This document shows, one piece after another, positions 59,435 through 64,000 of a stretch of 64,000 bases of DNA (position 1 is the first letter of the stretch; each line of letters opens with the position of its first letter). The stretch is from NCBI GenBank assembly GCA_900696495.1, contig CAADGI010000022.1, positions 1 to 64,000 of the forward strand, in the 5' to 3' direction. A program made the position numbers and the translations under genes. The notes under the pieces were generated by a model. It worked only from the letters and a program-made list of their open reading frames with translations, was not told the DNA's origin and made no database searches. Source of the DNA: an uncultured Alphaproteobacteria bacterium (lineage in GTDB: Bacteria > Pseudomonadota > Alphaproteobacteria > Micavibrionales > Micavibrionaceae).

Positions 59435-61225
<1,791 letters not shown>

Positions 61226-61303: not shown

Positions 61304-61633
61304 TTAATGGCGGGTTTCGTTCTCGCCCATAAGAAAGCGGATTTCATCGGCGACGCGGTCGGAATTGGTCTGGGCGATCTGTTTCCTGGCCTGTTCGGTC
61401 AGCGACATCTGTTTCTGGACCAGCGCCGCGGCGATTTTCTGGATGGTTTCCTCGCCAACACGCTCGCGTGCCGCGCGGGCATTAGCCAGCGCCTGGGCGC
61501 GAATGTCTTCACTCCCCGAACGCTGGCCTTTATTCGTAGTCCCCACACTCCCGCAACTCGCCTGAAGACTTCCTTTCGGGGCCTTCGACCGTTTGTCCGT
61601 TTTTTTCTTGTTTGGTTTTTTTGTCCAAAACAT
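61304..61633 (-). CDS. Hypothetical basic/helical protein
   Basis: A 109-residue protein with a Lys-rich N-terminus (MFWTKKPNKKKTDKRSKAPK) and a helical C-terminal half (AQALANARAARERVGEETIQKIAAALVQKQMSLTEQARKQIAQTNSDRVADEIRFLM). No signal, membrane segment or cysteine pair. The helical region, with its EETIQKI-QKQ pattern, resembles a conserved alphaproteobacterial small protein, but I cannot name a family. The start has no clear ribosome site. Confidence 0.55.
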   Translation of the reverse strand: MFWTKKPNKKKTDKRSKAPKGSLQASCGSVGTTNKGQRSGSEDIRAQALANARAARERVGEETIQKIAAALVQKQMSLTEQARKQIAQTNSDRVADEIRFLMGENETRH

Positions 61634-61696: not shown

Positions 61697-64000
61697 TCAG
61701 CCTACGCAGTGATTGAAATCATTGAAAATCATACCGAGCAATTCATTACGGTTGAAACATTCCTCAATAGGCTTCATCACTTGTTCGACCAATTCCCGGT
61801 AATCGGGCGGCGCCTGATAATCGGAAGGTTTGGCAGGCAGATCATTACCGAAACCGTTTTCTGATTTTTGAAAAAGCTGATTCAATATGCCAAGGTATTT
61901 GCGCTCGAATTTTGTAAATCCTTCTACAATACTTTCATTCGACACGTTATGCCGTCCAGCAATTTCTGGAATAACAGGCGAGGCGGCGTGAGTAAATAAT
62001 TTGACAATGGACATCAGGCGCACACCATGCGCAATTGCCATGTTTGTCTTCTGCTTCCGGGTAACCTTGATTGTGGGAGCCTGGAAATCCTCGTGATTTT
62101 CCAGACCGGTTTTTTTAAAGGTTTTGCTGATAAAATCGTAATCCATACGGATTTTGCTGACAATATCCGTTGCATCTTTATAGATTCCAAATTTTATCAG
62201 GTCGTTGGCCATAGTGATGCAGCTCTCTTTTTCAGATCCGTCCATAAACTCGGCACGGTGGGCCCAGAGGGCTGGATTATATAGTTCGATATATGAGGAG
62301 AGAATGCCCGGATCCGACAAATGCAATGCGCGCATGACCATCGCCAAACGCCGGCGGAAAGATTCAGATTCCTCTCCCAATTTCTGAAAATCCGCGGGAT
62401 TGCTTTTTATAGCGGCGGCGACCCCGCCAAGCACGGTCATTAGATAGCAAATCTGGATCAAGCCAGCGTTATACCGGATGGCCCGAAGCTTTTTGAAAGC
62501 ATTCTGAACCTCGTCGTTGGTTGGCCTGCTGCCTGAAATCTGCGAAAGGTTCTGCATAAACCGCAAAATCGTCTTAAGCGGAGTTTCTTCATCCGGGGAG
62601 TCGCCTGAATATTCTTCATGCGCGTTGCGCGCAACCGAGAACATGTGCAGGAAATCATGATCGGAGTTATAATAAATATCATTGGATTGGCTGTGATCAG
62701 CAAGGAAATAAGCCGCGGTCTGAACCATCTCCGCCACGCAGCCTTCCACAGTCGTAAACATCGTCTGGCCGCGCCCGCCCTGATAGCTGCACTCTGTTAT
62801 AATCTCTACACCTCTCTCGCGCGCATGTTTCAAATTTTCCGGTGAGACATAATAAGCCATCCTGTCAGTTACGCCGCCTGGATGGTTGCCGCGAGCCATA
62901 TTATTGCCGCCGATATGGAAAAATTTTAACTTTACGCCTTTTGCTGCCAGCCCGCTTGAAACATGCAAATCGATAAATTCGCGTACTGTGCGATCATGAA
63001 ACGCGCCTGCCGCGAACTGTCCTGCACCTACAGCATAATCCGAATACCCAAGAGAGAGAGAGACCACACCTCTTTTCTGGACATATTCCCTGAATTCGGA
63101 ACTGCTGTAGAGATCGGTCATGATCTCTTTAGCCCTGAAGCTGCCTTCCTTATCTTCAAAGAGCGGACAGACATCTATATTGTCGAGCAAACCCAATTCT
63201 TTCAGGAACAGAAGAACGGTTTTTATCGTGGAGGCATTGTGTGTTTCCGCGACTATAAGGCGGGCAGTTCCATGAGTCTCGATTTCATCTTTCATTTGCT
63301 GCGCCAGAGCGGTCATCGTAAACAGCAGGACGTTTGAATCTGCGACGTCCAGAAGATTGGCGTGTTTTTCAATGACTTCGCGCAGGCGTTTTTCAAGCGG
63401 GGCGGAATGGCTGCTATCCGTTGTACCTCTGTCTTCGATAGTTACTCCCTGGGTTGCCTGCAACGCGGGAATAGCCGATTTCGCACCTATCCGGAAATGA
63501 GGCTCTGCCGCGCTAAGACCGAATGATTTTAAAAGGCCTCTCAGTATGATTGCCTGTTCAGTGGCATCACTATTGATATTTTTATCGATAATTTTTTGCA
63601 TCGTATCAACAAGCGGCAACGTATCGATAACCAGATTTTGTTTATCCTGGACGAGTTTCGTTGCCCATTTGTGAAGGTTTTTACGATTCTTTTTTTCGTC
63701 CTTGCCGTAATCGGCATAAAATTTACGATGCTTATCAATTATCGTGCGACTACGCTTAAAATCCGAAATCATTTTCCTGATAACGGATTTGTCTTCGCCT
63801 TCAAGTGTGCCCGCCAGTTTCTGCAGTTGCGGGATATACCTATCCAGCATTATTTGCTGAAGGCGCAGCCTGTTTTCCAACGCGTGGAACCATTTGATAT
63901 CCTTGCGGCCATCCCAGTCGAAAGACCCCCATGTACCAAAGCGGCCGAGGCAATAATTTATTTTTGTCCATTCATCGGGATGCGTTTTTTGCACCACTCG
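61697..64000 (-). CDS. Divergent phosphoenolpyruvate-carboxylase homologue, N-terminus outside the window
   Basis: About 768 residues are visible; the frame stays open to the right edge. Blocks align with PEPC in order: THPDEW (the catalytic-His HPTE region), IVAETHNASTIKTVLLFLKELGL, CPLFEDKEGSFRAKEIMTDL, SLSLGYSDYAVGAGQFAAGAF, FFHIGGNNMARGNHPGG and QISGSRPTNDEV. Key residues differ: the Lys of the GYSDSxKDxG block is Val, and the glycine-rich GRGGxxGRGG loop has lost its first Arg. The C-terminus lacks the usual NTG ending. Fold is likely kept; carboxylation is doubtful. Confidence 0.75.
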   Translation of the reverse strand, partial: RVVQKTHPDEWTKINYCLGRFGTWGSFDWDGRKDIKWFHALENRLRLQQIMLDRYIPQLQKLAGTLEGEDKSVIRKMISDFKRSRTIIDKHRKFYADYGKDEKKNRKNLHKWATKLVQDKQNLVIDTLPLVDTMQKIIDKNINSDATEQAIILRGLLKSFGLSAAEPHFRIGAKSAIPALQATQGVTIEDRGTTDSSHSAPLEKRLREVIEKHANLLDVADSNVLLFTMTALAQQMKDEIETHGTARLIVAETHNASTIKTVLLFLKELGLLDNIDVCPLFEDKEGSFRAKEIMTDLYSSSEFREYVQKRGVVSLSLGYSDYAVGAGQFAAGAFHDRTVREFIDLHVSSGLAAKGVKLKFFHIGGNNMARGNHPGGVTDRMAYYVSPENLKHARERGVEIITECSYQGGRGQTMFTTVEGCVAEMVQTAAYFLADHSQSNDIYYNSDHDFLHMFSVARNAHEEYSGDSPDEETPLKTILRFMQNLSQISGSRPTNDEVQNAFKKLRAIRYNAGLIQICYLMTVLGGVAAAIKSNPADFQKLGEESESFRRRLAMVMRALHLSDPGILSSYIELYNPALWAHRAEFMDGSEKESCITMANDLIKFGIYKDATDIVSKIRMDYDFISKTFKKTGLENHEDFQAPTIKVTRKQKTNMAIAHGVRLMSIVKLFTHAASPVIPEIAGRHNVSNESIVEGFTKFERKYLGILNQLFQKSENGFGNDLPAKPSDYQAPPDYRELVEQVMKPIEECFNRNELLGMIFNDFNHCVG

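Follow-up and report, generated by a model that had tools for sequence, protein, structure and literature searches.

A very divergent PEP carboxylase relative without two textbook substrate-binding residues in a fad gene row

Judged by its sequence, the gene at 61697..64000 on the minus strand is a very divergent relative of phosphoenolpyruvate carboxylase (PEPC) that is devoid of two textbook substrate-binding residues, its catalytic core being otherwise retained. It probably encodes a functional, highly divergent anaplerotic PEPC, insensitive to aspartate and linked to beta-oxidation, with a rebuilt bicarbonate/phosphate site. The window, i.e. the whole stretch of 64,000 nucleotides analysed, contains the C-terminal 767 codons of the gene (codons 204-970 and the stop). 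The open frame runs on to an ATG 609 bases past the window, at contig position 64609 (C22:64609), so that the N-terminus, which the earlier note had rightly placed outside the window, could be recovered and the full product amounts to 970 aa.

By sequence, the PEPC scaffold proposed in that note was confirmed. The PF00311 profile matched the protein with 70.7 bits (E 9e-20; Pfam gathering cut-off 22.4), and the solved structures it matched were PEPCs without exception. The NCBIfam PEPC equivalog NF000584 scored 75.3 bits, far from its cut-off of 815, and the archaeal-type PEPC profile PF14010 gave 18 bits, below its gathering cut-off of 25. Likeness to archaeal-type PEPC (PF14010, TIGR02751) consisted of a weak match in the region of the GYSD/RG loops, with models that are only ~500 positions long. 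The scaffold is shared with E. coli Ppc over its full length, at 15.5% identity. A first scan of genome contigs with the single target protein as query returned no match. Two sister species (G097 and G098) have homologues that are 73% and 72% identical, in unchanged gene order. A plasmid or phage origin was considered and rejected, since close relatives are absent there.

Active-site residues and selection

The active site of PEPC is usually regarded as fixed. When aligned with E. coli Ppc, the present protein retains the catalytic histidine H138 together with a series of motifs, all encoded on the minus strand: TWGSFDWDGRKD (63899..63934), with W227 (= W248) and the aspartate residues of the loop GGDxDGN; PHFRIGAK (63479..63502), with R373 (= R396, PEP phosphate); PLFED (63152..63166), with the metal ligand E485 (= E506); GSRPTND (62513..62533), with R695 (= R699); and KLRAIRYNA (62465..62491), with R709 (= R713, PEP phosphate). 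The roles of these individual residues in metal binding, base catalysis and phosphate binding are presumably those established for PEPC, carried over by alignment. E. coli H138, H579 and R587 are reported as important for catalysis in PMC11832675, which cites Terada & Izui 1991, Terada et al. 1991 and Yano et al. 1995; all three have their counterparts here.

The substituted loops and the altered C-terminal NTG described earlier were found again in this alignment. In GYSDYAVGAG (63020..63049) the metal ligand D524 (= D543) is retained and V527 takes the place of K546. In HIGGNNMARG (62888..62917) H565 (= H579) and R573 (= R587) are retained, G567 takes the place of R581, and G580 of E. coli Ppc has become I. 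HPTE has turned into HPTY, and the C-terminus FNHCVG (61700..61717) ends in CVG (61700-61708) instead of NTG, with the terminal glycine (G970) preserved. A sequencing error or frameshift as the origin of these substitutions was rejected, V527 and G567 being present in both sister species as well. At QGGRGQ (62765..62782) an arginine is new where the large related clade A, described below, has QGGDG.

In a comparison of 62 PEPC-like sequences of all types, 19 of 883 E. coli positions were invariant, and H138, W248, R396, E506, D543, R587, R699 and R713 were among them (hypergeometric p 8.5e-15); the divergent types are only ~14-17% identical to E. coli in these alignments, with unambiguous motifs. 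K546, H579 and R581, on the other hand, differ from type to type. K546V was seen only in the genus of the target, every sequence outside it having K or R at position 546, and it goes along with QGGRG in place of QGGDG. One may speculate that the QGGRG arginine is a possible compensating charge for K546V.

The aspartate-inhibition site is altered, too: K773 is replaced by L, R587 is retained, and R832 and N881, both in poorly aligned regions, are not conserved. Loss of two residues of this site (K and N) is known from the serine-cycle enzyme Ppc1 of Methylosinus (PMC3615186), and the target resembles this 'non-regulated' type of serine-cycle PEPC in lacking the same K and N. PEPCs of Methylobacterium/Methylopila (L102-L106), for which a serine-cycle function is presumed, still have K546 as well as FHGRGG and, unlike the target, cluster among the canonical PEPCs.

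The gene is constrained by purifying selection, though it evolves faster than the fad genes around it: dN/dS against the sister species was about 0.11 for the PEPC-like gene and 0.03-0.06 for fadA/B/E (NG86). Towards G093, the PEPC-like protein has dropped to 31% identity, compared to 76% for FadB. Synonymous divergence (dS) of the PEPC-like gene departed from that of the fad genes (L002:7698-10610 vs L167 and L205). Between the target's genome (G000) and the sister species dS was 1.6 for the PEPC-like gene and 0.6-1.1 for the fad genes, whereas between the two sister species it was 0.17, lower than the 0.5-0.6 of the fad genes. This pattern hints at allelic exchange at the PEPC-like gene.

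Related types and their phylogeny

The target belongs to a side branch, A' (the target's genus with G093 and G051; SH-aLRT 97), that forms one clade with clade A at 100% support. Canonical PEPC and two further types, B and C, were each recovered with 100% support as well, in a tree from a quick search with long branches and an unsure exact order of the clades. Clade A consists of full-length relatives and counts more than 560 confirmed matches in GTDB genomes among the matches listed, in Methylobacterium, Bosea, Acetobacteraceae, Stella, Burkholderiales and others, and is apparently unstudied: a search of open-licence papers for non-canonical PEPC families or these clades found none, nor did we find an activity measured for any protein of A or A'. 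Members of clade A, the sister clade (e.g. WP_342312569.1 of Burkholderia, or the gene in the tartrate row of M. longum), share with the target the overall layout of the loops and a C-terminus in G. They differ from it in having K546R, H579D/N, R581H and QGGDG, for which the target shows V, H, G and QGGRG, respectively; their loops read GYSDxGRxxGQ and FDTHGES. For the clade-A protein of Stella, full length, a model was predicted with pLDDT 86.4 and pTM 0.90. Its best PDB match was 1jqn (E. coli PEPC; E 2.9e-20). The matches had TM scores of 0.59-0.62 with a high rmsd, indicating that domain positions differ. For the target itself, AlphaFold was applied to the part encoded in the window and gave a poor model (pLDDT 59), which was left out of account.

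Type B has the loops AKSDTTRQDG and NGGGHALQRGGG. Its loops were also recorded as AKSDTTRQDGRG and NGGGHALQRGGGRVTE, in proteins that end without an NTG-type C-terminus (L158:8278-11274, L149:9005-11752, L162, L157, L164 and others); none of these was seen in the fad slot discussed below. Type C proteins (~1100 aa; L150:1586-4885, L154:7296-10553, L180-L191) are very divergent, and the two members scanned fall under, or just clear, the PF00311 cut-off.

Among the 104 genomes of the window's family searched with PF00311, no PEPC with a canonical score was found: the best score was 98 bits, compared to ~790-1100 bits for canonical copies elsewhere. A/A' occurred in 10 of these genomes, type B in 9 and type C in 17, G071 being the single overlap. 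A PEPC-like gene is lacking in about two thirds of the genomes, which thus manage without the function. Outside the family, Methylobacterium/Methylopila genomes combine a clade-A gene with a PEPC that has a canonical active site, and clade A alone was found in Stella, Elioraea, Falsiroseomonas, Bosea and others. The neighbourhood in Phyllobacterium, where the clade-A gene comes after sucCD-like genes, had prompted the idea that clade A is a serine-cycle PEPC; it was dropped in view of the second copy with canonical active site in Methylobacterium/Methylopila.

Gene row and metabolic setting

The target lies in a row of genes of one direction, fadA-fadB-[ceramidase-like]-PEPC-[109 aa]-fadE. The acyl-CoA dehydrogenase gene fadE (59435..61225, minus strand) borders the slot downstream. 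Between it and the PEPC-like gene there is an ORF of 109 aa (61304..61633, minus strand), without a Pfam match and kept in the sister species. This small ORF has a dN/dS of about 0.15, and ORFs of like size occur at the same place in several relatives. Next to the PEPC-like gene on its other side, the ceramidase-family gene (PF05875; L002:10730-11389 = C22:64729-65388) is variably present in the fad rows of relatives, and a PD-(D/E)XK (PF13366) gene sits between fadA and fadB in some genomes only (L002:14254-14703, L154:13868-14347, L211). Given intergenic distances of 64-363 bp, and with an upstream match to a promoter-like sequence, a single transcript of the row remains putative.

The slot between fadB and fadE is occupied by A' in 4 genomes (G000, G097, G098, G093) and by type C in 7 (G031, G092, G094, G030, G024, G057, G053). 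In G095, G022, G056, G051, G080, G021, G071, G035 and G076 it is without PEPC, and A', type C and the empty slot all occur within one genus (g36; G092-G095). Common descent of the A' and type C genes in the slot was ruled out: monophyly of A'+C was rejected in an AU test under the same model as the tree (p-AU 3e-9), so two distinct PEPC-like types reached the same slot. That both stand there in different species suggests an interchangeable function, and the finding is best explained as one function swapped for its equivalent.

The own genome, a draft assembly whose rating of 100% completeness makes absences good, not perfect, evidence, gave no match to pyruvate carboxylase (PYC), isocitrate lyase (ICL) or ATP- or GTP-dependent PEPCK. 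The search for a second, canonical ppc suggested by the earlier note came back empty, the genome having one PEPC-like gene in all. Malic enzyme is present and could be a source of C4 acids.

Clade A has no conserved neighbours overall apart from lineage-specific ones, and some of these are informative. In M. longum (L039:2123-11826), genes for an MFS transporter, tartrate dehydrogenase (TIGR02089, 578 bits, cut-off 470), a glycerate 2-kinase-like protein, pyruvate kinase and enolase are followed by a co-directional clade-A PEPC; the same genome has another clade-A copy, besides a canonical PEPC. In Sphingobium the row consists of a 2-hydroxyacid dehydrogenase, an APH-type kinase, enolase and an FAA-hydrolase-family protein, then the clade-A PEPC. 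On the basis of these two rows, and the tartrate-enolase row of M. longum in particular, PEP is very probably a substrate of clade A. In Burkholderiales an RraA-family protein, relatives of which bear the name oxaloacetate decarboxylase, and D-glycerate dehydrogenase adjoin the clade-A gene.

Proposed reaction and alternative explanations

The lack of PYC, ICL and PEPCK in the own genome, taken together with the clade-A contexts, makes an anaplerotic PEPC the best reading. The general mechanism of PEPC proceeds via carboxyphosphate, a histidine and trapping of CO2 (review, PMC10176493). Transferred to the present protein, the metal held by E485/D524 would bind PEP, whose phosphate would be gripped by R373 and R709. 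Carboxyphosphate would form from bicarbonate near R573/R695, and H130 would accept the proton, allowing CO2 to be set free; the enolate would then capture it, yielding oxaloacetate. At the vacated positions of K546 and R581 other groups would have to take over, perhaps the QGGRG arginine. With its aspartate-inhibition site gone, the enzyme should escape aspartate feedback, and its placement between fadB and fadE would let it provide oxaloacetate to match the acetyl-CoA that beta-oxidation yields, in a cell that has neither a glyoxylate shunt nor pyruvate carboxylase. Points against this reading are the concurrent loss of K546 and R581, the fast evolution, the many genomes of the family that lack a PEPC-like gene, the presence of malic enzyme and the poor AlphaFold model of the target's own window part; a relative with measured activity in A or A' was looked for and not found.

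The loss of the two residues and the fast evolution could be taken to indicate a catalytically dead or regulatory paralogue, the pseudo-enzyme of the earlier note, the more so as a canonical ppc is absent from the family. We find this very improbable: the general base, the metal ligands and the arginines that hold the PEP phosphate are retained under purifying selection, as are R587, R699 and the terminal glycine, survival of all eight core residues is not expected of a decayed gene, and no active partner PEPC to be regulated was found in the own genome. The same note had also envisaged a new activity on the PEPC scaffold. Its premise of rebuilt loops stood up, the changes K546V, R581G and HPTE to HPTY going past conservative substitution in the target's genus, and L006/L008 being changed differently. 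Such an activity might be bicarbonate-dependent PEP hydrolysis, for instance, or involve a different enol-phosphate as substrate or a different acceptor, in connection with beta-oxidation; we consider it unlikely, and less likely than PEP carboxylation. It would fit the position next to fad and not glycolytic genes, and the reported importance of E. coli H138, H579 and R587 for activity (PMC11832675) means that loop changes can matter. Precisely these three residues are retained, however, the PEP-handling residues R396, R713, W248, E506 and D543 are invariant, the clade-A context with its enolase rows is one of PEP/glycerate metabolism, and the occurrence of type C in place of A' in this slot points to a common reaction. 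That PEPC scaffolds without K546/R581 run a different reaction coupled to beta-oxidation, on which unrelated PEPC-like lineages converged within one family, appears doubtful to us.

A further explanation shares the chemistry of an anaplerotic PEPC and differs on its role: the gene would be a fast-evolving PEPC without a special link to fatty acids, and the fadB-fadE slot only a tolerant insertion site. The ceramidase-like and PD-(D/E)XK genes are likewise variable in the fad row, and GC is 0.47 in the PEPC-like gene part, below the about 0.55-0.58 of the fad genes, as in acquired genes. A general hot spot is nevertheless unlikely to have received two unrelated PEPC-like types exactly here in several genera, and we give this explanation little credence.

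Many genes labelled 'phosphoenolpyruvate carboxylase' or 'hypothetical' appear to belong to uncharacterised families of this kind. The A' relative in G093 (L006:1354-4407) has all eight catalytic-core residues, yet no Pfam match at E 0.1, and would be overlooked by automatic annotation. These large, apparently unstudied clades, in which the eight-residue core is retained, the bicarbonate/phosphate loops are replaced and two types alternate in one operon slot, offer a natural test for which PEPC residues are essential, and point to PEPCs that may by nature be free of aspartate feedback.
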